The position numbers and the translations under genes were made by a program. From assembly GCA_022565635.1 (NCBI GenBank), contig JAIUMH010000012.1, positions 1 to 38,114 of the forward strand: a stretch of DNA of 38,114 nt. The letters run 5' to 3'. The notes below the pieces were generated by a model. The model was given only the letters and a program-made list of their open reading frames with translations, was not told where the DNA came from and made no database searches. Positions 630 to 31,628 of this stretch are shown here, piece after piece; within the stretch, counting starts at the first letter, position 1; each line of letters opens with the position of its first letter. Source of the DNA: Flavobacteriaceae bacterium (GTDB lineage: Bacteria; Bacteroidota; Bacteroidia; Flavobacteriales; Flavobacteriaceae).

Positions 630-789
630 GAACCCCTAGCCCTGATGGAGGTGGCATCCCCAAATAAAAAAGCCATTAGATTTTTAAGTGGAAAAAAGCG
701 ACCGGGAGGAAGCTCTTTTTACGCCTAAAAATCTTGGCTTTTGAGTTTGGGATAGAGCCGAGAGCAGGTTCCCGGCTCCTGATTTTTTT
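630..789 (+). ncRNA. Candidate structured small RNA, rod-like (6S-type?) with terminator
   Basis: The sequence folds into a long rod. A closing helix pairs 630-634 (GAACC) with 767-771 (GGTTC), and a large internal loop follows. A second helix pairs 653-664 with 746-759 around small bulges. A third pairs 670-675 with 735-740 and 678-686 with 726-734. An apical hairpin pairs about 692-699 with 712-720. Near the end, GAGCCG (755-760) can alternatively pair with CGGCTC (773-778), followed by seven T at 783-789, which would act as an intrinsic terminator. A weak -7-like box (TTATTTTG, 617-624) would place the start near 631. The terminator overlaps the stop of the convergent peptidase gene. The rod shape with a big internal loop resembles 6S RNA, and Flavobacteria have lineage-specific RNA families of this kind. 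The family name is inference; the fold is visible. Confidence 0.6.
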
Positions 790-2953
790 AGTTTTTACCA
801 AAAATCCACCAACCTTTTTTCTTCTTTTTTTCAACTTCTTGTTCAGTTGAGTTGGCTTTTGGGTGTACTAAATTCATTTCTTCTATTAAATGACCCGCAT
901 TTCCAAATTTATCAATGATAAACAGGATGTAGCGGGCATCTACCATGATGTTTCTACAGATTTCTGGGTCGTAATATAAATCTGACATGGTACCTTCCCA
1001 AACGCGGTCAAAATTGAGTCCGATTAGATTTCCGTGGGCGTCTATAGCGGGACTTCCAGAATTTCCACCAGTGGTTTGATTAGTGCCAATAAAACCTATA
1101 GGCATTTTTCCGTTGGCATCTGCATAAGCTCCAAAGTCCTTATTTTCTTGTAACTCAATTAATTTTTGTGGCACATCAAATTCATAATCGCCCGGCACGT
1201 ATTTTTCCAAAACTCCTTCTAAGTAGGTAACGTGGTTGTAATATACGGCATCTCTGGGTTGGTAGCCGTTAACTTGGCCGTAGGTTACGCGTAAAGTAGA
1301 ATTGGCATCAGGAAAATATCTTTCTTCTGGCAAGACCTCCATCATGGCCGTCATGTAGATTTTTTGAGTTTCTGCAATTTCTGATTGTATGCGTTGGTAA
1401 TTGGGGTTGAGAATTTGGTAAAACTCTGTAATGTAGTCTTCGGCAAATTGATATAATGGATCTGTTTCAATAGCTTTTACTACTTTATCTACATCTCCAC
1501 TTAAAGCTTCTATTGCCATTTTTTGATTAGTGAAAATTGTGTTTTTGTATAGTTTTTCAATTTGTTTTGTGCTTACTTGTTCATCATACAAAGGGAAAAT
1601 ATTTTCTGCTACTTTTTGATCTACGTATGCATTAAAGTTTTTGTAAACACGCTCTAACATTGGGATAATATTAGCTTGGGCTTGTTGAAATTGATTTTCT
1701 CCTTGATTTGCACTTTGCTTGAGTTGGTAAAGCCTAAAAGAAATTTGAAGCAACTCTGTATTGGTAAAAAAGACTTCTAAAAAGTTAGAGCGTTTCACTG
1801 CAAAGGGTTCAAATTCTTGGTATTGTGCTTCAAAAATAGAAAGCAAATTACCGTAGGCTTCTTGCTTTCCTTGCGCTTTAACGGCTTGCATAAAGCGTTT
1901 TTCAAAATCTTTTTTGGTTTGAATAGCACCACTTTTTTCAATGCCTAAATTTTCTCCTTTCCACTTTTTCCAATAATTAGCAATTCTTGCTTGCTTAGAG
2001 GCATATTGAATTCTAATTTGGTCATCTTGTTGCATAAATGCATCAATCTGTTCTAATGCTTTCTCTCTAATTTCTATATTGCTTGGATTAATTTTTTGGG
2101 TGATTTGCTCTACAGCAACCGCAGGTAAATACTGGTTAGTTCTTCCTGGAAATCCAAAAACAAGGGTAAAATCATCTTCTTCTACGCCATCTAAGGATAT
2201 TGGAAGGGAGTGTTTAGGTTGATAAGGAACGTTATCTTCACTGTATTTGGCTGGCTTATTGTCTTTATCGGCATAAATTCTAAACACTGCAAAATCACCT
2301 GTATGTCTTGGCCATACCCAGTTATCTGTATCTGAACCAAATTTACCAATGCTTGAAGGAGGCGCACCAACCAATCTTACATCTTCGTATTTTTCAGTAA
2401 TGAATAGGAAATACTGATTTCCTGCGTAGAAGGATTTTACGTTGGCTTCTTGCCAAAGTTCTTTATCAGCTTGATTGATTAATTCGGCTTGTTTTTGGTC
2501 TAAAGCCGCTTGTTTTTCTCTTAAGTCCATGTCCTCAGAAATAACTGAAAGCATTTCTTCAGTTACCTCTTCAATGCGAATAATGAATCGGGCATAGAGA
2601 TTTTCATTGGGTAATTCTTCTTCTAAAGACATGGCCCAAAATCCGTTTTTTAGGTAGTCGTTTTCTAAGCTAGAATGCGATTGTATTTGTCCGAAGCCAC
2701 AGTGATGATTGGTAAGTAGAAGGCCTTGGTCTGAAATAACTTCTCCAGTACAACCACCGTTAAAATGCACAATGGCGTCTTTTAGGCTAGAATTATTAGC
2801 ATCATAAATATCTTGTGCAGTAATTTTAGCACCAAGATTTTTCATTTCAGTTTCATTTTGTCCTTCTAAAAGCGAAGGAACCCACATTCCTCCTTGCTGA
2901 GCAAAAATGGGAAATGCAATGAAGAGTAGTAAAAATTTTATGTTTTTAATCAT
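788..2953 (-). CDS. dpp11: S46 family dipeptidyl peptidase, DPP11-type
   Basis: This is an exported serine dipeptidyl peptidase of family S46 (DPP7/DPP11), which removes dipeptides from the N-termini of peptides in the periplasm. A signal peptide covers residues 1-18, ending FAQQ. The triad fits the family spacing: His84 in TNHHCG, Asp220 in WPRHTGDF, and Ser632 in GGNSGSP. Arg650 lies in NFDRVW, 18 residues after the catalytic Ser. In Porphyromonas DPP11 the equivalent Arg673 gives specificity for Asp/Glu at P1, whereas DPP7 has Gly there, so acidic specificity is inferred. The length of 721 residues is normal. The C-terminus carries a run of five lysines followed by GWW. It lies 43 bases downstream of purD on the same strand, and no separate promoter is obvious. 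Confidence 0.93.
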   Translation of the reverse strand: MIKNIKFLLLFIAFPIFAQQGGMWVPSLLEGQNETEMKNLGAKITAQDIYDANNSSLKDAIVHFNGGCTGEVISDQGLLLTNHHCGFGQIQSHSSLENDYLKNGFWAMSLEEELPNENLYARFIIRIEEVTEEMLSVISEDMDLREKQAALDQKQAELINQADKELWQEANVKSFYAGNQYFLFITEKYEDVRLVGAPPSSIGKFGSDTDNWVWPRHTGDFAVFRIYADKDNKPAKYSEDNVPYQPKHSLPISLDGVEEDDFTLVFGFPGRTNQYLPAVAVEQITQKINPSNIEIREKALEQIDAFMQQDDQIRIQYASKQARIANYWKKWKGENLGIEKSGAIQTKKDFEKRFMQAVKAQGKQEAYGNLLSIFEAQYQEFEPFAVKRSNFLEVFFTNTELLQISFRLYQLKQSANQGENQFQQAQANIIPMLERVYKNFNAYVDQKVAENIFPLYDEQVSTKQIEKLYKNTIFTNQKMAIEALSGDVDKVVKAIETDPLYQFAEDYITEFYQILNPNYQRIQSEIAETQKIYMTAMMEVLPEERYFPDANSTLRVTYGQVNGYQPRDAVYYNHVTYLEGVLEKYVPGDYEFDVPQKLIELQENKDFGAYADANGKMPIGFIGTNQTTGGNSGSPAIDAHGNLIGLNFDRVWEGTMSDLYYDPEICRNIMVDARYILFIIDKFGNAGHLIEEMNLVHPKANSTEQEVEKKKKKGWWIFGKN

Positions 2954-21751: not shown

Positions 21752-23101
21752 ATGAAAGTAGGAATATCTAGTATTCATTTTGATGTCCCAAAAATTTATC
21801 TCCCCATTGAAGAGTTGGCTCAACATAGAAATATTGAATCAGCCAAGCTTAATAAAGGTCTTGGTTTAGAACGAATGACTTTTCCAGATGTTCATCAAGA
21901 TATAATTTGCTTTGCCGCTAATGCTGTAATTCAATTGTTAGAAACCGAAGGACTAGAACCTTCAATGATTGATCGAATTTATTTTGGTACAGAAAGCGCT
22001 TTAGATAGTTCAAAACCTATGGCAAGTTACCTGTTGCCTATTTTAGCACAGCATTTTAATAATCAAAATCCCAATTGTGATGTGGTAGATTTTACTTTTG
22101 CTTGTATAGGAGGGGTAGATGCTTTTCAAAATTGTTTAGATTATGTGCGTTTACGTCCAGAAAAAAAATGCATTGTAGTTTGTTCTGATTTTGCGAAGTA
22201 TGATTTATCTTCTCCTGGCGAATATACCCAAGGGGCTGGAGCCATAGCTATGCTTATTGAAGCACAGCCAAAACTTTTAAGTTTTTCTCTTGAAACTGGA
22301 ATTTCAAGTCGAGGGGTATTTGATTTTTTTAAACCTAAGCGAAGTTTTCAAAAGCGTCAAATTCTAAATTCAAATGTAGAAGCAGACCATTTCAGTCACT
22401 ATGAAGAAGAACTTTTAATTGCTCGAGAACAACCTGTTTTTGATGGTCAATACTCCAATCAGTCTTACCTAGAACGTGTTCAAGAAGCTTATTTCGATTT
22501 CAAAAAGCAAAAGGAAACGGACTCCCCATGTTATGCTAAATGGGAGCTTATCTTGATGCATTTGCCTTATTGCTTCCAGGCTAGGCGCATGTTTTGGCAG
22601 ATCATTGCTTCAGAAGAACCAGATTTAAAATCTTCCTTTGAAGGAGCTTCGGATGCTGAAAAATGGAAAGCCTTTAGCAAGTCTGATGCTTATAAAAAAA
22701 TAGTTCAACAAAAAATATATCCTTCTGAAGTGGCTTCTGGAAAAGTAGGTAATATTTATACGGGGTCTATCTTTTTAGGATTGCTTTCTGCATTGTATTA
22801 TTCAGCAAAAGAAAATAGCGATTTAACAGCTAAGACTTTAGGATTTATGGCTTATGGAAGTGGCGCAAAAGCTAAAGTTTTTGAGGCTGAAGTTCAAGCT
22901 GAATGGAAAGAGCAAATTCTAAAATCAAAACTTTTTGAAACTTTAGATCAAGCTCAGCCTATTTCTTTTGAAACCTATGAAAAACTGTATTTGAAGAAGC
23001 AATTAAATTCAGTAGTATCACCCAAAAATGAAATTCAACTTCAACGTGTTGAAAAGGAAAAACCTGAAAGCTATGGGGCAAGGTATTATAAGTGGGTTTA
23101 G
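21752..23101 (+). CDS. mvaS: Hydroxymethylglutaryl-CoA synthase
   Basis: It condenses acetyl-CoA with acetoacetyl-CoA to HMG-CoA, the committed entry to the mevalonate route to isoprenoids. Catalytic residues are Glu81 (YFGTESALD), Cys118 (FTFACIGGVDAF) and His270 (LMHLPYC). SGKVGNIYTGSIFLGLLSAL and FMAYGSGAKAKVFE are the conserved C-terminal segments. It has 449 residues, longer than the roughly 390 of Gram-positive MvaS and like other Bacteroidota forms. It is convergent with the gene for GGGP synthase, another isoprenoid enzyme. Confidence 0.95.
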   Translation: MKVGISSIHFDVPKIYLPIEELAQHRNIESAKLNKGLGLERMTFPDVHQDIICFAANAVIQLLETEGLEPSMIDRIYFGTESALDSSKPMASYLLPILAQHFNNQNPNCDVVDFTFACIGGVDAFQNCLDYVRLRPEKKCIVVCSDFAKYDLSSPGEYTQGAGAIAMLIEAQPKLLSFSLETGISSRGVFDFFKPKRSFQKRQILNSNVEADHFSHYEEELLIAREQPVFDGQYSNQSYLERVQEAYFDFKKQKETDSPCYAKWELILMHLPYCFQARRMFWQIIASEEPDLKSSFEGASDAEKWKAFSKSDAYKKIVQQKIYPSEVASGKVGNIYTGSIFLGLLSALYYSAKENSDLTAKTLGFMAYGSGAKAKVFEAEVQAEWKEQILKSKLFETLDQAQPISFETYEKLYLKKQLNSVVSPKNEIQLQRVEKEKPESYGARYYKWV

Positions 23102-23160
23102 AGTAAAAATCAAGATTTGAATAAGGATAAAAAAGCCGACTCTAATATTGTGATGGCTTG

Positions 23161-23886
23161 CTAAGGTCTTATAAAAAATTCCTTTTTCTCTAAAGCATTT
23201 CCTATAACAAGCATTTTTGCACCGGCATGAAAGGCTTGTTGCATGGCTTTTGAATTTTTTATGCCACCACCTACTATAATTGGAATATCTAAGTGATTGG
23301 CTAAAGTAGTGATGATTTTTTCAGAAACAGGTAGTTTTGCACCGCTTCCAGCTTCTAAATAAACACACTGATGGCCCAGGTATTGACTAGCCAATGCAGT
23401 ATGTAGAATTAACTCCAAATCATTGGGATTTAATGCCTTGGTTTGACTTGTTTTTTCAACAGAAGTTGTTTTGCCGCCATCAATCAAAATATAGCCTACA
23501 GGAATAATTTCTAAAGTTGTATTTTTTAAATACGGCACTGCTTTTATTTGTTGCTTAATTAAGTATTCTGGATTATCCCCTGAAATTAGTTGTAAAAACA
23601 ATAATGCATCAGCTTCTGAACAGATTTGTGAATAATCGCCTGGAAATAATACAATGGGTAATTGGGTATATAATTTAAGTTGCCTCACTAATTTTTGAGT
23701 AGCTCCTTTTTTTACCTGGCTTCCACCAACAAAAATGCTTGAAGCATGAAATGGAAGTTTTGCTAGAAAACTTTCAGTTTCTCTTAAATCAAAACAGTCT
23801 GGGTCTATTAAAACAGATGTTAGTGGGCTACTATTGCTGGTAAGCAAGCTTGTGAATTTTGTTTTATTGGTGGTTTCTTTTTTCAT
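23161..23886 (-). CDS. Geranylgeranylglyceryl phosphate synthase (GGGP synthase)
   Basis: This TIM-barrel prenyltransferase of the PcrB/GGGPS family attaches a long prenyl group to sn-glycerol-1-phosphate, forming an ether bond as in archaeal lipids. Recognisable parts are LIDPDCFD (phosphate/magnesium site), FVGGSQVKKGAT, PVGYILIDGG, YLEAGSGAKLPV and PIIVGGGIKNS. Several Bacteroidota carry such enzymes, but the lipid made is not well defined. ATG at 23886 (MKKETTNKTKF, 241 residues) is preferred; an in-frame start at 23919 would deepen the overlap with the upstream phosphopantetheinyl transferase gene. The overlap is 23 bases as annotated. Confidence 0.9.
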   Translation of the reverse strand: MKKETTNKTKFTSLLTSNSSPLTSVLIDPDCFDLRETESFLAKLPFHASSIFVGGSQVKKGATQKLVRQLKLYTQLPIVLFPGDYSQICSEADALLFLQLISGDNPEYLIKQQIKAVPYLKNTTLEIIPVGYILIDGGKTTSVEKTSQTKALNPNDLELILHTALASQYLGHQCVYLEAGSGAKLPVSEKIITTLANHLDIPIIVGGGIKNSKAMQQAFHAGAKMLVIGNALEKKEFFIRP

Positions 23887-24508
23887 TTTCAGTGGCATAA
23901 ACGCAGATGTAATTTTCAAACTCCAAAAAACTTAAGTCGTAAAAACTTTTGCTTCCTTGGCTAGTAACACTTGCAGTTGTAGTGTTTTCAGAAAGATTAA
24001 AATCGGTAACAAATATATCATGCAAAAACAAAAGCCCCTGTTTTCCATAAAGTTTATAAAGTGATTCTTTGGCTCCCCAAACAATAGTCAATTTTTTGAT
24101 TAAATCATTGCCTTCTAATGCGGTATATTCTTCAATAGGTGTAAATTTAGGAGCAATCTTCATAATTTTATCACGCTGTTTTTCAATATCAATACCCACT
24201 TTAACATTGCTTACAATTACAGCTGTAAATTCAAACGAATGGGTGATAGAAATTTCTGTGCCATCTTTTAAATGGGGTTTTCCGTGTTCGTTGTAGTAGA
24301 GGTCATGATCTTTATAGCCCAAGTGCTTCAGTAGGTGACGGATGCTTAGGAAACCTTTCTGGTGTACTTCAGATTTCATTTTTGCTAAGCGTTCTGCAGA
24401 ATTTTGGTTTAATTCAACTCCTTCAGAAAGCGTGGCCACTGATTCTTCTATTTTCCAAATCAGCACTTTAGTATGTTGGTCAATTGTTATCTTTTTATAA
24501 ACAGGCAT
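23864..24508 (-). CDS. 4'-phosphopantetheinyl transferase, Sfp type
   Basis: It moves 4'-phosphopantetheine from CoA to a serine of acyl or peptidyl carrier proteins. The two signature motifs are present: VGIDIEKQRDKI (the magnesium-binding Asp and Glu) and WGAKESLYKLYG. GKPHLKDGTEISITHSFEF is the family's substrate-binding segment. The length of 214 residues is normal for the Sfp/Gsp group. Its 3' end overlaps the GGGP synthase gene, so they are co-transcribed. It is divergent from ahcY, with a promoter at 24547-24554. Confidence 0.93.
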   Translation of the reverse strand: MPVYKKITIDQHTKVLIWKIEESVATLSEGVELNQNSAERLAKMKSEVHQKGFLSIRHLLKHLGYKDHDLYYNEHGKPHLKDGTEISITHSFEFTAVIVSNVKVGIDIEKQRDKIMKIAPKFTPIEEYTALEGNDLIKKLTIVWGAKESLYKLYGKQGLLFLHDIFVTDFNLSENTTTASVTSQGSKSFYDLSFLEFENYICVYATENEKRNHQ

Positions 24509-24528
24509 TCCATTTTTGCTAATATGAT

Positions 24529-24536
24529 TACTTTTG
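24529..24536 (+). promoter_or_regulatory. -7 box for ahcY
   Basis: TACTTTTG matches TAnnTTTG. It implies a start near 24543 and a 19-base leader before ATG 24562. It lies within 20 bases of the opposing -7 box at 24547, so the two divergent promoters overlap. Confidence 0.45.
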
Positions 24537-24546
24537 CATTTTTAAA

Positions 24547-24554
24547 CAAATATA
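24547..24554 (-). promoter_or_regulatory. -7 box for the phosphopantetheinyl transferase operon
   Basis: The minus strand reads TATATTTG, a full match to TAnnTTTG, with a second match (TAGATTTG) directly upstream at 24555-24562. The inferred start near 24540 leaves about 32 bases before the ATG at 24508. Confidence 0.45.
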
Positions 24555-24561
24555 CAAATCT

Positions 24562-25878
24562 ATGAGTAAAGAGACAGTACCTTACGTTCCATATAAAGTA
24601 AAAGATATCACTTTAGCGGAGTGGGGGCGAAGAGAAATAGAGTTAGCCGAGCACGAAATGCCAGGATTAATGGCTTTAAGAGAAGAGTACGGAAAACAAA
24701 AACCCTTAAAAGGAGCTAGAATTGCAGGTTGTTTGCATATGACTATTCAAACGGCTGTCCTTATTGAAACTTTAGTTGAATTAGGAGCTGAGGTAACTTG
24801 GAGTTCATGTAATATATTTTCTACTCAAGACCATGCAGCCGCTGCTATTGCAGCAACAGGAGTTCCTGTTTATGCATGGAAAGGAATGACCGAAGAAGAG
24901 TTTAATTGGTGTATTGAACAAACCTTGTTTTTTGGCGAAGATAGAAAACCATTAAACATGATTTTAGATGATGGAGGCGATTTAACCAACATGGTTTTTG
25001 ATGAGTATCCAGAATTGGCTTCAGGTATTAAAGGGCTTTCTGAAGAAACTACTACGGGTGTTCACCGCTTGTATGAACGAATGAAAAATGGAACTTTAGT
25101 GATGCCGGCAATCAACGTAAATGATTCGGTGACAAAATCAAAATTTGATAATAAATACGGCTGTAGAGAAAGTGCTGTAGATGCCATAAGAAGAGCTACA
25201 GATACCATGTTGGCAGGAAAACAAGTAGTGGTTTGTGGTTATGGTGATGTTGGAAAAGGAACAGCCGCTTCATTTAGAGGAGCAGGGTCTATTGTAACCG
25301 TTACAGAAATTGACCCAATTTGTGCTTTGCAAGCTGCAATGGATGGTTTTGAGGTGAAGCGCCTAGAAACCGTACTTCATAAAGCGGATATTGTGATTAC
25401 AACCACAGGAAATAAAGATATTGTGCGTGGTGAACATTTTGAAGCCATGAAAGACAAAACTATTGTTTGTAATATTGGTCATTTTGACAACGAAATTGAT
25501 GTAGCTTGGTTAAAAAACAATCATGGAAGCACCCGTGTAGAAATCAAAGCTCAAGTAGATAAATACACCATTAATGGTAAAGATATTATTTTACTTGCTG
25601 AAGGAAGGTTAGTGAATTTAGGTTGTGCAACTGGCCACCCAAGTTTTGTGATGAGTAATTCATTTACCAATCAAACCTTAGCGCAAATGGAACTTTGGAA
25701 CAATACAGATCAATATAAAAATGAAGTGTATATGCTTCCTAAACATTTGGACGAAAAAGTAGCTGAGTTACATTTAAGTAGAGTAGGTGCTGAATTGACA
25801 AAACTGAAAAAAGATCAAGCCGATTATATTGGCGTTGAAGTAGAAGGACCATTTAAACCAGAATACTACAGATACTAG
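24562..25878 (+). CDS. ahcY: Adenosylhomocysteinase
   Basis: This cytoplasmic NAD-dependent enzyme splits S-adenosylhomocysteine into adenosine and homocysteine, keeping the methylation cycle running. Typical parts are [43 protein letters not shown], the NAD-binding [25 protein letters not shown] and [16 protein letters not shown]. It ends with the family C-terminus FKPEYYRY, which reaches into the neighbouring subunit. The length of 438 residues is standard. A terminator lies 25 bases downstream. Confidence 0.98.
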
Positions 25879-25903
25879 TAAGTTGTTTTATCGCAATTAA
25901 TTC

Positions 25904-25939
25904 AACCGTTTTCAAGTCACATTGAAAGCGGTTTTTTTT
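25904..25939 (+). terminator. Terminator after ahcY
   Basis: A 12-bp stem with one mismatch (AACCGTTTTCAA at 25904-25915, TTGAAAGCGGTT at 25922-25933) encloses a 6-base loop and ends in a run of eight T. Confidence 0.88.
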
Positions 25940-25952
25940 GGCGTATTCCGGG

Positions 25953-25983
25953 GCCTGCCTGCCCAAGTGTTTATCAGGCAGGC
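25953..25983. repeat. GC-rich palindrome, related to the dispersed repeat (copy C)
   Basis: GCCTGCCTG (25953-25961) and CAGGCAGGC (25975-25983) form a perfect 9-bp inverted repeat with a 13-base loop. The arms match the CCTGCC / CAGGCAG arms of copies A and B, but the flanks do not. Confidence 0.65.
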
Positions 25984-26194
25984 TTTCCGTTTCAATTCCT
26001 CAAAACTCAAGTGTATTTTCTAATGTTTTAGCAAGAGCTTCCTGCCGGTCGCTTTACCAAAACAAGAAAATATCTACTTCCCTTTTTCCAGGATTTCCAC
26101 TTCAATCCCTAACGCATGAAAAGAACAGTTATAAAATTGAATGTTGAATATCAAATAACGAATACTGAATAGCGAATAGCGAATACCGAAGTTA

Positions 26195-26260
26195 GAATTG
26201 AGTACAAAGAATTAAGTACAAAGAATTAAGTACAAAGAATTAAGTACAAAGAATTAAGTA
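26195..26260. repeat. 14-base tandem direct repeat, 4.7 copies
   Basis: The unit GAATTAAGTACAAA is repeated at 26195, 26209, 26223 and 26237, with a partial copy at 26251. The first unit has one change (GAATTG). The units are contiguous with no spacers, so it is a slippage-prone array and not a CRISPR. Confidence 0.92.
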
Positions 26261-26497
26261 GTAATGCTTAGGGCTGAGAAATTTGAAATAGCAAATATGA
26301 AATTTGAAATAAACACAAGTCACGGTTCACGGTTCACAAATCACGAATAACGAATAACGAGCTTCCCTAAATAGCGTTGACCGTTTTGGGGAATTTTTAG
26401 TTAGCAAAGCCTTAAAATCTCCTTTTATTCTTTGTATTAAAGTCTTTTTAAAAAATTAAAACCAGATATAGATGATTAATTTCTCAAATAAATTGAC

Positions 26498-26505
26498 TAT
26501 TTTTG
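26498..26505 (+). promoter_or_regulatory. -7 box for the HTH-Fic gene
   Basis: TATTTTTG matches TAnnTTTG and predicts transcription from about 26512, 14 bases before ATG 26526. Its last five bases lie inside the palindrome at 26501-26516, so a protein bound there would block the promoter. No good -33 element is seen. Confidence 0.55.
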
Positions 26506-26516
26506 TCATGACAAAA
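26501..26516. promoter_or_regulatory. Perfect 16-base palindrome, probable operator
   Basis: TTTTGTCATGACAAAA is its own reverse complement over all 16 bases. It spans the end of the -7 box and the predicted transcription start of the HTH-Fic gene. A dimeric helix-turn-helix protein is the natural reader, and the gene's own product carries an HTH domain, so autorepression is the simplest inference. Confidence 0.6.
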
Positions 26517-26525
26517 TATTTCATT

Positions 26526-27590
26526 ATGAAATTAATTAGCACCAAACAAAAAAACTTAGGCTTAAAGGTTAATGAATTGGCGCAGTTAGTGGGTGTAGAT
26601 TCAAGTTTAATGAGTAGGATTATTTCAGGAAAGCGTCGCCCAACTATGCCCCAATTGAAGAAGCTAAGTGAAGTTTTAGATTTAGATTACAACCAATTAC
26701 TTAAAGAATTTTTAAGTCTTCAAGTAATGGAATTATTAGCTCCATATCCAGCCATTGCAGAAGAGGTAATTCAAGTTGCAGAAGAGCGTATAGCTTATCT
26801 TAAAGGAGAAGAGAAATTTACAGTTATACAGCTGAATCAACAAGTGTTAGATCTGCTCAAACAAGCTGAGCAATTACAAGTGCAATGGAGTAATCAAAAA
26901 CCACTAAATAGTTTGCAGGTTAACAAAATGAAAGAATACTTTCATACCGCTTATACCTATGAGAGCAATCGGATTGAGGGAAATACACTTACCTTAAGTG
27001 AAACTCACTTAGTAATTAATGAGGGTATAACCATTGGCGGTAAAAGTATGCGCGAACATTTAGAGTTGATTAATCATAAAGATGCTATTGATTTAATTTT
27101 TGATTTGGTTCAAGACAAGGTTCATTTTAATGCATTTTATTTAAAACAAATTCATCAATTAGTCTTAAAAGGGATAGACCAGAAAAATGCAGGCGTGTAT
27201 CGTTCTGTTCCTGTGCGTATTTCAGGAAGTGCACATTTGCCTCCAGCGCCTTATCTCATAGATCAATTAATGGAAGAATATTTTTTGTTTTATGAAATGC
27301 AAAAAAATGTTTTACATCCTGTTATACTTGCCGCAGAAATGCATGAACGCTTAGTTTCTATACATCCTTTTATAGATGGAAATGGAAGAACATCGCGTTT
27401 GGTTATGAACTTGATTTTGTTACAACATGGTTACACTTTGGTTAATTTAAAAGGAGATCCTAGCCAAAAACTAGCTTATTTTAAAGCTTTAGAAGCTGTT
27501 CAAGTCAATCATGAAAATTCGCATTTTCACAGGTTAATTGCTGAGCATGCCATAGAATCTTTGCAAGAGCATTTAGAGTTAGCTGGGTAA
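26526..27590 (+). CDS. Fic-domain protein with N-terminal HTH
   Basis: Fic proteins usually transfer AMP from ATP to a hydroxyl on a target protein. An XRE-type helix-turn-helix covers about residues 1-60 (VNELAQLVGVDSSLMSRIISGKRRP). The Fic core has the complete active motif HPFIDGNGRTSR (280-291), with catalytic His280. The inhibitory motif SNRIEG (147-152) fits the class II (S/T)xxxE(G/N) pattern, so the enzyme is probably self-inhibited by Glu151. The start at 26526 (MKLISTKQKN, 354 residues) is chosen because upstream in-frame starts at 26472 and 26508 precede the predicted transcription start. No separate antitoxin gene is visible. A palindrome over the promoter suggests self-regulation. 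The target is unknown. Confidence 0.93.
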   Translation: MKLISTKQKNLGLKVNELAQLVGVDSSLMSRIISGKRRPTMPQLKKLSEVLDLDYNQLLKEFLSLQVMELLAPYPAIAEEVIQVAEERIAYLKGEEKFTVIQLNQQVLDLLKQAEQLQVQWSNQKPLNSLQVNKMKEYFHTAYTYESNRIEGNTLTLSETHLVINEGITIGGKSMREHLELINHKDAIDLIFDLVQDKVHFNAFYLKQIHQLVLKGIDQKNAGVYRSVPVRISGSAHLPPAPYLIDQLMEEYFLFYEMQKNVLHPVILAAEMHERLVSIHPFIDGNGRTSRLVMNLILLQHGYTLVNLKGDPSQKLAYFKALEAVQVNHENSHFHRLIAEHAIESLQEHLELAG

Positions 27591-27592
27591 AA

Positions 27593-27626
27593 AAAAAGCT
27601 GTTTCATTTTACAGAAACAGCTTTTT
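27593..27626. terminator. Terminator after the Fic gene
   Basis: A perfect 13-bp stem (AAAAAGCTGTTTC at 27593-27605, GAAACAGCTTTTT at 27614-27626) encloses an 8-base loop, with A- and T-runs at the ends, directly after the stop codon. Confidence 0.9.
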
Positions 27627-27761
27627 GTTTTCATCAAAATACATGATTTAGAGGTTATGAATGCTAAGGAGTAAATTCATTTCTGACTTCAATATTTTTT
27701 ATTTTTTTTGGTTAATGAGCTGAATTTTAAACTTTTTCATTAATTTTAAAAAATTTTTGAT

Positions 27762-29114
27762 ATGCCACATCGCGCAATTGATACTTGGGTCATTAATCCA
27801 TTAAACCGATTTATGAGAAAATCCACCTCTAGTGGAATCCTCCTTTTTTTCATGGCTTTTCTTTCGCTAATTATTGCTAACAGTCCTTTACACGAAGCAT
27901 TTGACTCATTTTGGCAAACACGTGTTTCGTTTAATTTTGGTAGTTTCAGCGTAGATAACTCTTTGCTTCATTGGGTAGATGATGGTTTGATGTCCTTGTT
28001 CTTCTTTGTAGTTGGTTTGGAGTTAAAGCGGGAGCTAGTAGCTGGCGAATTAGCTCGACCTAAAGATGCCTTGATGTCAATTGTAGCCGCTATTGGTGGA
28101 ATGCTTTTGCCTGCCTTAATTTTTTATCTTTTTAATAAAGACGCATCCATAGATGCGCTAAACGGTTGGGGAATTCCTATGGCTACCGATATTGCTTTTG
28201 CCTTAGGAGTGATTTTCCTTTTGGGGGACAAAGTGCCAACTACCTTAAAAGTGTTTCTCACCGCTTTAGCTATTATTGATGATGTAGGTGCAGTTTCTGT
28301 GATTGCTTTTTTCTATACTGAAAGCCTTTCTTTTGTGAGCTTGATGTTGGGTGGCTTTTTTCTTAGTATCATGCTTTTATCTAATAGATTGGGCATAAGA
28401 AGTCCGTTGTTTTACGGTATTATTGGTATTGGAGGCGTTTGGCTGGCTTTTTTAATGAGTGGTGTACATGCAACAATCGCCGCTGTTTTAGCTGCTTTTA
28501 CTATACCCGCTAGTGTTGAAATTCACAAAGAAAGTTATTTAAAGAAAATCGGTTCTTTCACCAATCAACTTAAAAAGACCAAATCCTCTGCTCATGAAGC
28601 TATTCTTACCCCCAACGAAGAACAGGTTTATAATCAAATTAATTTGACCACAGAAGAAGCTATTTCACCTCTTCAGCGTTTAGAACATAAAATGCATCCT
28701 TTAGTGGCTTTTGTGGTTATGCCTATTTTTGCTTTGGCTAATGCTGGAGTTAGAATTGAAGAAAATTTTTTAGAAGTTCTGTCGGGAAGTGTGGCTATGG
28801 GAGTAGCCTTTGGACTTATCATAGGAAAAGTTGTTGGTATTGTAGGATTTGTGTATTTGTTTAGTAAATTGAAGCTATTTGATATACCAAAAAGTTTGAA
28901 TTTCAAGATGATTGTAGGTGTTTCTTTTTTAGCGGCTATTGGGTTTACTATGAGTTTATTTATAACTTCACTTGCTTTTGAAAACCCTGAATATGCCAAA
29001 CAAGCTAAATTAGGCGTAATTGCTGCTTCTTTTGTTGCAGGAACTATTGGCTTTTTTATTTTAAAATCAGCCTTGAAAAACCATGAGGGTAAGCCAGAGC
29101 TTAATCAAGGTTAA
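27762..29114 (+). CDS. nhaA: Na+/H+ antiporter NhaA
   Basis: This inner-membrane antiporter exports sodium in exchange for protons, important at alkaline pH and in saline habitats. Key segments are MATDIAFALGVIFLLG, carrying the Asp corresponding to E. coli Asp133, and ALAIIDDVGAVSVIAFFYT, carrying the paired Asp163/Asp164 of the ion site. FFVVGLELKRELVAGEL is the typical N-terminal region. The protein has 450 residues against 388 in E. coli. The extra length is a hydrophilic loop around residues 255-308 (HKESYLKKIGSFTNQLK and following), common in Bacteroidota NhaA. The gene has the most obvious link to the broken antiporter at 8614: both handle sodium or protons. Confidence 0.96.
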   Translation: MPHRAIDTWVINPLNRFMRKSTSSGILLFFMAFLSLIIANSPLHEAFDSFWQTRVSFNFGSFSVDNSLLHWVDDGLMSLFFFVVGLELKRELVAGELARPKDALMSIVAAIGGMLLPALIFYLFNKDASIDALNGWGIPMATDIAFALGVIFLLGDKVPTTLKVFLTALAIIDDVGAVSVIAFFYTESLSFVSLMLGGFFLSIMLLSNRLGIRSPLFYGIIGIGGVWLAFLMSGVHATIAAVLAAFTIPASVEIHKESYLKKIGSFTNQLKKTKSSAHEAILTPNEEQVYNQINLTTEEAISPLQRLEHKMHPLVAFVVMPIFALANAGVRIEENFLEVLSGSVAMGVAFGLIIGKVVGIVGFVYLFSKLKLFDIPKSLNFKMIVGVSFLAAIGFTMSLFITSLAFENPEYAKQAKLGVIAASFVAGTIGFFILKSALKNHEGKPELNQG

Positions 29115-29453
29115 GAAGTATAATTTATATTTACCTGAGTTCCATTATTCTCACTTTGTCAACCTGCCTTTGCTGTCAGGCAGAAATAGTTTTAAACCTA
29201 CTTAATTTTCACAAAGCTAATCACAAGGAAAATATTTCAGTATTTTTTAGAATTCAATTTTCGAATGAATCTTTTTAATAACAAAACTTTCTACCTACAA
29301 AATTAAGCTTGCAAAACTTACAAGAGGAGTTCACAGGTTTTCTTTCGTTTCAATAATTTTCTAGAATTGCATCATGCGAAGCTAATTGTTCACGGGTGGT
29401 GATTCCAACTCCGCATGGCACATAAATTTTGTTTTTTATAGCAACAATAGTTC
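29115..29453. other. Intergenic region between nhaA and hemL
   Basis: About 340 bases between convergent genes. It contains repeat copy B at 29133-29197. No gene and no strong terminator stem are seen in the rest. Confidence 0.6.
29133..29197. repeat. Dispersed GC-rich repeat, copy B
   Basis: It aligns with 259-327: CTGAGTTC, then TATTCTCACTTTGTCAACCT, then an inverted repeat core CTGCC ... GTCAGGCAG (a few bases shorter than in copy A), then AGTTTTAAA. The two copies are 29 kb apart and in the same orientation. Confidence 0.72.
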
Positions 29454-30746
29454 TTAAGCTTTCAACGCTGGAGCTAAATCGTTTAATGCTTGGATAGTAA
29501 TATCTAAATCTTCATAGCTCAATGCATCGTTTAAGAAATAACTTTCAAAAGCACTTGGCGGAAGATAAACTCCTCGCTCTAACATACCATGAAAATATTT
29601 TTTAAAGGTTTCGTTATTGGCTTTTGCCGCCGATTCAAAATCTACAACAGGCTCATGGTTAAAATGCACAGACATCATTGAACCTAAACGATTGATGGTA
29701 TGTGGAATTTCATGTTCCGTCAGCACTTTGGCTATGCCTTCGTGCAAATATTTGGTTTTATCGGCCAAGCTGGTAAAAATTTTATCTCTATCATTTAAAG
29801 ATTGAAGCATGGCTAAACCTGCTGCCATAGCTAACGGATTACCACTTAATGTTCCCGCTTGATACACTGGACCTTCTGGGGCTAAATGACTCATGATTTC
29901 TTTTCTAGCGGCAAAAGCTCCTACAGGCAAGCCACCACCAACAACTTTTCCAAAAGTTACAATGTCTGCTTGTACGCCTAATAATTCTTGAACCCCACCT
30001 TTAGCCAGTCTAAAGCCTGTCATTACTTCGTCAAAAATCAATAAAATTCCATGTTGGTCACAAAGACTTCTTAAGCCTTCAAGGAAACCTTTTTCAGGAA
30101 TAATACAGCCCATGTTCCCAGGGACTGGTTCAATGATGATGCAGGCAATTTCACCTTGGTTAGCTTCAACTAATTTTTCAACTCCTTGCAAGTCGTTGTA
30201 GTTAGCAAGTAAAGTATCTTTTGCTGTTCCTTTGGTTACCCCCGGGCTATTAGGTGCGCCAAAAGTAACTGCTCCACTTCCTGCTTGAATCAAAAACGAA
30301 TCTGAATGACCGTGATAACAACCAGCAAATTTGATGATTTTATCCTTTCCTGTGTAACCTCTAGCTAATCTTACCGCACTCATACAAGCTTCAGTTCCGC
30401 TATTTACAAATCTGATTTTGTCTATGCCGGGAACCATTTCAACTGCTAACTTAGCTATTTGTGTTTCTATTTCTGTGGGAATACCGTAAGAAGTCCCTTT
30501 TTTGGTTTTTTCAATAACAGCATCAACTACGGGTGGATAAGCGTGGCCTAAAATCATAGGACCCCAAGACGCAATATAATCAATAAGTCGGTTGCCATCT
30601 TCGTCATATAAATAAGCGCCTTTTGCTTCTTTCACATAAATGGGTTCTCCGCCCACTGCGCTAAAAGCTCTAACGGGTGAATTTACTCCTCCGGGTATAT
30701 ATTTTTGTGCTTCTTTAAAAAGCGCACTACTTCTTTTATAAATCAT
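29454..30746 (-). CDS. hemL: Glutamate-1-semialdehyde 2,1-aminomutase
   Basis: This PLP enzyme of the C5 pathway turns glutamate-1-semialdehyde into 5-aminolevulinate for haem synthesis. It opens with [19 protein letters not shown], typical of HemL. The PLP lysine is in [30 protein letters not shown] and FDEVMTGFR bind the cofactor. The length of 430 residues is standard. It lies 6 bases behind the glucosaminidase gene, in an apparent three-gene operon with the ACC deaminase-like gene. Confidence 0.97.
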
Positions 30747-30752
30747 AAAAAA

Positions 30753-31628
30753 TTATTTCTTAGTTTTTAAAATCAGTTCTTGACCTATGCTCAAATTATC
30801 AGAGCGCAACGCATTCATGCGCTTTAATTCTTCAACAGTAAGGTTGTATTTAGAAGCTATTTTGTATAATGTTTCGCCTTTTTGAACCACATGAACGTTT
30901 TGTTGGTAATCTACTCGAGTTTTTGGTTTAGGAAAGTTGGGTGGGGGTGTGCCATCTTTTACTTCGCGATCTAATTCATGTAAATTGTAACGCTCAATCA
31001 AACTGATGAGTTTTTCAGGATATTTTTTATCGGTAGCATAACCCGCCCTTCTTAATCCCTTTGCCCAAGCTTTGTAATCGGTGATTTCATAATCAAATAA
31101 AAAGGCATATCGTGGACGTTCATACAAAAAAAGCGAGTGATCTCTAAACGAATATTTAGGATCTACATATTTCCTAAAACATTCTTGCAATTCGTCATCG
31201 TCATGATAAACACGTTCCCCTTCCCAATTGGAACATTTAATGCCAAAGTGATTGTTAGAACGCTGCGCTAAGTCGCCATTAGCCGAACCCGATTCTAAAA
31301 TTCCTTGCGCCATTTTGATGCTTGCAGGAATACCATATAACTTCATTTCTTCCTGTGCAACACCAGCGTATTTCCAAATGTATGCCTCAACAGGATTGTT
31401 GAAATTAGGCTTTTCTTCTGTTGTTTCTATCTGTTGAGTTTGGTTGTTAGAAGCATCAGGAACTGATTTTTTTTGTTCCCCTACTTTTGGCGACTCACCT
31501 ACCTGAGTTTTTACCTCTTGCTCTTTTGTAGTTGGGCTTGGTGAAGCTTCAAAAACACGTTTCTTGCTACCGCAGGAAAACATAAAAAACAGCATGCAGA
31601 CAAGACTTATTTGTTTGTATATTTTCAT
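30753..31628 (-). CDS. Glucosaminidase lipoprotein with LysM domain
   Basis: A cell-wall hydrolase: an FlgJ/LytG-type glucosaminidase followed by a LysM peptidoglycan-binding domain. The N-terminus has a lipoprotein signal ending MFSCGSKK. A Thr/Lys/Gln-rich linker follows. The catalytic domain contains KMAQGILESGSANGDLA (catalytic Glu), SNNHFGIKCSNWEG and FRDHSLFLYERPRY. The LysM (VQKGETLYKIASKYNLTVEEL) lies at the C-terminus. ATG at 31628 gives a clean signal peptide; the frame's TTG at 31637 is less likely. It has 291 residues and begins one base after the preceding stop. Confidence 0.93.
   Translation of the reverse strand: MKIYKQISLVCMLFFMFSCGSKKRVFEASPSPTTKEQEVKTQVGESPKVGEQKKSVPDASNNQTQQIETTEEKPNFNNPVEAYIWKYAGVAQEEMKLYGIPASIKMAQGILESGSANGDLAQRSNNHFGIKCSNWEGERVYHDDDELQECFRKYVDPKYSFRDHSLFLYERPRYAFLFDYEITDYKAWAKGLRRAGYATDKKYPEKLISLIERYNLHELDREVKDGTPPPNFPKPKTRVDYQQNVHVVQKGETLYKIASKYNLTVEELKRMNALRSDNLSIGQELILKTKK

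Follow-up and report, generated by a model that had tools for sequence, protein, structure and literature searches.

The window analysed here is a 38,114-nt stretch of a Psychroflexus contig (Flavobacteriaceae), and near its start a segment at positions 630-789 of the plus strand is predicted to fold into a long rod that ends against a convergent peptidase gene. What kind of element is this rod, and in which form is it read: as a transcript of its own, as part of a neighboring transcript, or as folded DNA? An earlier note had described it as a rod-shaped structured RNA with its own promoter and terminator, and had likened it to 6S RNA or, alternatively, to another Flavobacteria-type RNA family. 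The predicted fold had a free energy of -58 kcal/mol, compared with -42.0 +/- 4.0 kcal/mol for shuffled sequences (z -3.96), and none of 200 shuffles was as stable. The rod-shaped element itself was thus real, with better boundaries at 633-783, a core at 637-777 and a length of about 150 nt (Table 1).

Table 1. Coordinates of the element, its parts and associated features in the window.
Feature	Position	Strand	Basis
Whole element	633..783	+	Match to covariance model R1, 135.1 bits, model positions 1-150 of 150 (this copy is a training row of R1)
5' end domain UAGCCCUGAUGGAGGUGGCAUCC; resembles Flavo-1 and has G.A-type internal loops	637..659	+	Flavo-1 alignment, alignment of copies
Long rod, 5' arm	659..697	+	Fold and covariation
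Conserved tip GCGACCGGGAGGAAGC (GC / G.A-A.A loop / CC-GG / GGGA loop)	698..713	+	Alignments of copies
Long rod, 3' arm	714..750	+	Fold and covariation
3' end domain GAUAGAGCCGAGAGCAGGUUCCCGGCU	751..777	+	Flavo-1 alignment, alignment of copies
Alternative hairpin GAGCCG...CGGCUC, terminator-like in the window copy	755..778	+	Fold
T-run 3' of the hairpin	783..789	+	Sequence, tail check
Convergent S46 peptidase gene (dpp11 of the earlier note), stop codon 788-790	788..2953	-	PF10459
Second long-form copy, other end type (GCGUUAGGGAU...GCCUG)	25970..26115	-	R1 match, 55.1 bits; fold z -3.03

The element was a multicopy repeat. Blast matches numbered at least 13 in its own genome (G000), at least 10 in G002 and at least 13 in G018, the last two being sister species. 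The covariance model R1, built from ten complete copies of which the window copy was one, had at least 32 matches in G000, at least 24 in G018 and at least 23 in G002 (E<=0.001, short forms included). At the same threshold, and again counting short forms, at least 25 of the 27 genomes of the genus contained R1 matches. The copies were intergenic and occurred in both orientations; the second copy in the window lay between ahcY and a Fic/HTH gene. Seventeen of 27 rows from the own genome shared at least one flank, mostly the downstream flank, with an element locus in a sister species, so present-day mobility would be slow at best.

Base pairing of the rod was conserved among the copies. In a first alignment of ten sequences, 26 of the 43 pairs were doubly changed in at least one row. 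A second alignment (A2) held 63 copies from three species: 56 matches, the second copy in the window, a second match in locus L246, and loci L257-L261, which were partial or decayed and came from loci obtained for other reasons. The 56 matches were taken from 57 listed of at least 79 in G000, G018 and G002, with a contig-end copy (G000:C146) excluded. Standard pairs filled 87.5% of the pair cells of A2 (66.7% when shuffled). The earlier note had made its case hinge on compensatory changes in homologues, and these were present at 38 of the 43 pairs over the 63 copies (555 cells, compared with 173 shuffled). Covariation was 0.516 in A2 and 0.164 in its shuffled counterpart, and it fell to 0.08-0.11 when the partners were slid by 1-3 columns. 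Thinning to 45 copies with less than 80% mutual identity, in which L257-L261 were dropped first, left 87.7% of cells paired and 37 pairs doubly changed (440 cells versus 133). A third alignment (A3) contained 26 rows from other genera and families, among them three tipless loci (L356, L357, and L365) and a weak antisense row (L294 plus), and had a covariation of 0.757, compared with 0.199 shuffled and at most 0.196 with partners slid.

Copies at matched sites in different species gave a similar picture. Across 21 such pairs, hand-picked from the top of the list and including three-way comparisons of one site, there were 109 pair-keeping double changes, compared with 11-18 when the partners were slid, and 33 pair-keeping single changes. 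Another 101 single and 33 double changes left just one of the two copies paired. Several of the 21 pairs shared only the downstream flank, and some may represent replaced rather than orthologous copies. Judged from these alignments, evolution has clearly preserved the fold, and selection is shown to act on a folded strand.

The identity of that strand was suggested by mismatches rather than by pairs. At four positions near the ends, G.A or A.G mismatches were kept in 55 of 56, 52 of 57, 46 of 56 and 54 of 58 copies; C.U was never seen there, and three A.G to G.A swaps were found. A folded plus strand would be expected to keep G.A mismatches, whereas its complement would not, and conserved mismatches argue against mere hairpin-templated mutation. 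We infer that selection acts on the plus strand in its folded state, be it RNA or single-stranded DNA (ssDNA). Counts of G-U against A-C pairs, taken across alignments and cuts, were mixed: 106:37 in one count of element copies; 122:59 for all pairs of another, in-register count and 97:55 for pairs that were at least half Watson-Crick; 79:49 at a stricter 60% cut and 39:38 at the strictest (70%); and 212:209 in a poorer MAFFT-only alignment with many false pairs. By minimum free energy the plus strand was the more stable one in 42 of the 58 copies compared, with a mean difference of -3.7 kcal/mol, and this strand test was set aside because control DNA from the flanks had a similar bias (34 of 56, mean -5.2).

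At the gathering cut-off, no Rfam family matched within the window. In a relaxed scan the best match was Flavo-1 (RF01705) at 634-775, with 24.1 bits (E 0.0067) against a cut-off of 42 bits. The window copy aligned over the full Flavo-1 model (1-76) with nearly all pairs kept, and carried an insert of 85 nt at a place where the consensus is printed with 17. The score is sub-threshold because the short loop gives way to a long rod whose tip, GCGAC...GGAAGC, is fixed; this tip was highly conserved among copies. Ten other long copies scanned in the same relaxed way all matched Flavo-1, at 30.2-41.2 bits and thus each below 42. At the gathering cut-off, 20 long-copy loci, including six of those ten, had no Flavo-1 match. 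The Rfam check proposed in the earlier note thus returned Flavo-1 only in relaxed form, and the guess of a Flavobacteria-type RNA family was borne out by the shared ends.

The element and Flavo-1 have in common an end domain (UAGCCCYGAUNGNAG...GCRGG), the same helices, G.A-type loops and their occurrence in Bacteroidetes, the taxon to which the host genus Psychroflexus belongs. By eye, GGCU of the 3' end domain can also pair with UAGC at 637-640, a pair absent from the model. The two differ in that Flavo-1 has a 76-position consensus with a short variable loop, whereas the element spans 142 nt and has a long paired rod with a conserved tip. The window copy thus has the end helices of Flavo-1, falls below its gathering score and lacks its short apical loop. 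In the reverse comparison, 30 RF01705 loci from the genus were considered, and R1 recovered 18 of them. The gathering cut-off was passed by three longer RF01705 matches (139-146 nt) in G014, one of which (C15:35653-35791) was also matched by R1 at 73 bits, so the families overlap. At least two RF01705 matches were listed in the own genome, both below cut-off. We would call the element a long-rod variant of Flavo-1 that is not a member by Rfam's own test.

R1 matches extended beyond the genus. Among the genomes listed, they occurred in 37 of 119 in the family-level search, where many were short forms of 75-105 nt, and in 16 of 197 in the class-level search at E<=1e-7. The loci examined for the tip were a non-random choice among the listed matches, made mostly for length near 150 nt, and the fractions found among them are not frequencies. 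By eye, 11 of 20 family-level loci had the tip, all 11 in G154 and G079; the other nine had Flavo-1 ends around unrelated inserts. At class level the tip was again present in 11 of 20 loci (at most one mismatch; eight exact), from families f1, f20, f39, and f51. The carriers included GC-rich genomes, in which the rod letters were wholly different. The remaining nine comprised short forms, long rods with another or a decayed tip (L356-L358, L365), and other palindromic inserts. In total, at least four families of the class had the long form; rod sequences differed among them, whereas the pairs were the same and the length was similar. The distance from the tip to the 3' anchor had a median of 48 nt in Psychroflexus (IQR 48-49, range 42-70; unmeasurable in 10 of 53, the anchors being located by pattern) and 49 nt in other genera and families (47-57, range 45-77; unmeasurable in 1 of 22). 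As far as these comparisons reach, the ends, the tip and the approximate rod length are kept across families.

The reading that we favor, with about as much belief as doubt, is that this long-rod variant of Flavo-1 is a structured, REP-like repeat, dispersed between genes and probably read in trans. The sequence of the rod drifts while its pairs are kept, and the spacing between the tip and the 3' end varies little. On this reading the plus strand would be selected in folded form (RNA or ssDNA), and a trans-acting protein would recognize the tip and the G.A-lined end loops over a fixed distance. The protein is a guess, and no binding protein was found. REP/BIME repeats of RAYT systems, as characterized in the available part of PMC2817692, are likewise multicopy, intergenic and imperfect hairpins. 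The element differs from them in being longer (about 150 nt), in its similar rod length throughout, in its conserved tip and in having no RAYT association that we could find. Words beginning with Bacteroid- or Flavobacteri- do not appear in that part of PMC2817692; a REP survey (available part of PMC12306157) includes two Flavobacterium genomes.

Mobilization by RAYT in the manner of REP sequences was tried as a candidate and rejected, since Y1_Tnp neither tracks nor flanks the element. PF01797 (RAYT/Y1_Tnp) was absent from genomes with at least 23 (G002, 90% complete), at least nine (G011) and at least three (G022) R1 matches. With strict motifs, none of 30 Y1_Tnp loci had both the 5' and 3' element motifs, and 13 had at least one single motif. 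Integron attC sites carry paired R boxes and stand in tandem cassettes with an integrase. The ends of the element seemed unlike R boxes when compared by eye.

The best of the alternatives, although we consider it rather unlikely, is that the copies are genes for trans-acting sRNAs. The members of such a family would be transcribed independently, each from a promoter of its own lying upstream, and would stop near the 3' end of the element. The G.A loops, which favor a folded plus strand, would suit such RNAs, and so would the arrangement of the copies: of 18 symmetric contexts, 17 (including 9 of 9 from the own genome) had a gene closer to the 3' end than to the 5' end. These contexts came from copies with two called neighbors in G000, G018 and G002, and some sites were counted in more than one species. 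This polarity is unaccounted for by a REP-like reading, and the extra room on the 5' side might be explained by an sRNA with an upstream promoter.

The promoters expected of such a family were not apparent. Promoters of the Bacteroidota type have a box with the consensus TAnnTTTG. The promoter-like box of the earlier note found no backing: a sigma70 scan listed no promoter just upstream of the window copy, and TAnnTTTG was not enriched upstream of copies (10 of 55 on the element strand versus 14 of 55 on the opposite strand). Eight partial or IS-cut loci were dropped from both the promoter and the polarity counts. In 17 matched-site pairs the 700 nt upstream aligned well in four, weakly in two and not in 11, and the downstream side aligned in all 17, although pairs were chosen mostly by that side. 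The second copy in the window had the reverse pattern of flank alignment when compared with G018.

Tails and orientations bear on the same question. The window copy has a plausible terminator, namely the hairpin 755-760/773-778 followed by T783-789, as the earlier note had pointed out. It was unlisted by a consensus terminator scan; its loop is longer than the scan allows. The GAGCCG...CGGCUC hairpin was confined to a few of the copies examined. T-rich tails followed 13 of 57 copies and A-rich tails 19 of 57, and since so few tails were T-rich, a terminator does not appear to be a feature of the family. The contexts of copies were 28 codirectional, 8 convergent and 11 divergent, compared with 14, 5 and 9 in a control of 28 element-free gaps of at least 250 nt, so neither an orientation preference nor a gene-3'-end preference was seen among the copies counted (ten of the 63 A2 rows, at contig edges, were omitted). 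Taken across copies, these counts of promoters, orientations and tails leave the independent transcript of the earlier note unsupported. Rfam types Flavo-1 as "Gene; sRNA", and Table 1 of Weinberg et al. (2010; PMC2864571, in the part available) lists it as a likely RNA (y) that is not cis-regulatory (n). Against this, the Flavo-1 matches of F. psychrophilum lay sense or antisense to transcribed regions and many lay in none, according to the available part of PMC9723704.

An unlikely reading, too, is that the rod, folded as ssDNA, is a site on which a recombinase or transposase acts (in principle like attC or REP) and serves as a substrate for mobility or recombination. An empty site was found in which a G018 locus without the element corresponded to an occupied one in G000, with homology resuming 2 nt past the 3' edge of the element; there, about 340 nt upstream of the element were also unmatched, so the difference was not the element alone. 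In G000 (L312), two direct copies bracketed a block of about 6 kb. In G002 the outer flanks of this block were about 2.6 kb apart, with the block absent and another element copy between them. Synteny with G018 and G002 broke at several element sites (L311, L312, L313 and 23000-31000 of the window), and in three G018 copies an IS110-type flank set in at one and the same position.

The empty site and the bracketed block are suggestive of insertion or recombination at elements, but homologous recombination of the ordinary kind, between repeats, could account for them as well. Other gaps broke as well, and the first element of L313, one tested site of the own genome, was collinear in G018. No recombinase could be tied to the element, no target duplication was established, and many sites were old. 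Unlikely, too, is the broader version of this idea, in which the rod would be a folded single-strand site of ancient origin and nearly fixed length, perhaps ssDNA rather than RNA, whose tip and ends are read by a protein of this class of bacteria that moves or recombines the site. If it were true, what has been filed as an sRNA family since 2010 would be a site of recombination or mobility, with genomes rearranging around it.

It is quite improbable that the element acts in cis on neighboring transcripts, as a terminator, an mRNA 3' stabilizer or a 5' leader. The case for this comes from the dpp11 side. The T-run overlaps the stop codon of the convergent gene, just as the earlier note had stated; the gene encodes an S46 peptidase that fell below the cut-off of the NCBIfam Dpp7 model, and the label dpp11 is that of the earlier note. 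Downstream of the same gene, G018 and G002 keep roughly the final 30 nt of the element as a hairpin, with a perfect stem in G018. R1 fitted the full stretch downstream of the gene at 22 and 39 bits in G018 and G002, fits that we read as mostly the shared 3' part. On the REP-like reading that we favor, the 3' hairpin may have been co-opted beside the dpp11 stop codon, because the two sister species keep little beyond this part. Among copies in general, a T-run was not conserved, a preference for gene 3' ends was lacking, and both orientations and 11 divergent sites occurred. The copy beside dpp11 is best read as one site of the family and not as a dedicated dpp11 regulator.

The competition between terminator and rod that the earlier note had noticed was real in the window copy and a few near relatives, and was not family-wide. 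Positions 757-759 can pair either in a rod helix or in the hairpin stem, and the fold energy was -57.9 when free and -49.5 with the lower rod enforced. The outer-rod and terminator-like folds are mutually exclusive in the window copy, so a switch is structurally possible there.

The likeness to 6S RNA, and with it a role in binding RNA polymerase, came down to a rod shape in Bacteroidetes and is scarcely credible, as the 6S-Flavo RNA (RF01685) of the own genome was found elsewhere (G000:C88:7192-7300, 98.3 bits, above cut-off), the element region had no 6S match at E<=10, and the element is present in at least 32 copies.

In the long form Flavo-1 has a second, larger architecture, whose conserved tip recurs, on a rod of similar length, across several bacterial families. 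No function is known for Flavo-1, which was first described in 2010: the available part of PMC9723704, the one transcriptome paper found, saw no pattern and gives no clue to function, that of PMC9029176 lists Flavo-1 without a function, and our literature search found no paper that describes the long form or gives Flavo-1 a function. The Rfam model mostly misses the long form at its own threshold in the copies sampled (the three long matches in G014 pass). Several handles are available: a tip and end loops that could be mutated or used as bait, dozens of copies in each genome, and compensatory changes at matched sites.

Some further observations concern single loci. A copy was kept at the same place beside a gene of about 417 aa in all three species (L203, L245 and L257), and the 3' ends of these copies closely resembled the 3' end of the dpp11 copy, as though gene conversion had taken place. 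In G018, the same flank began at the same point inside three rod elements (L232, L235, and L238). The L232 flank encoded a transposase of the IS110 family (PF01548, PF02371; just that protein was scanned), suggesting that an IS110 element may target the rod. Positions 257-548 of the window were occupied by a 292-bp MITE-like repeat whose inverted ends are 13 bp long and, by eye, agree at 12 of the 13 positions. G018 had copies of it with about 92% identity at L227, L237 and L257, the last of which interrupted a rod element, and partial copies occurred in L239, elsewhere in L257 and at 29133-29196 of the window. TPP riboswitches lay near two matched element sites (L209, 5888-5983; L242, 5690-5789).
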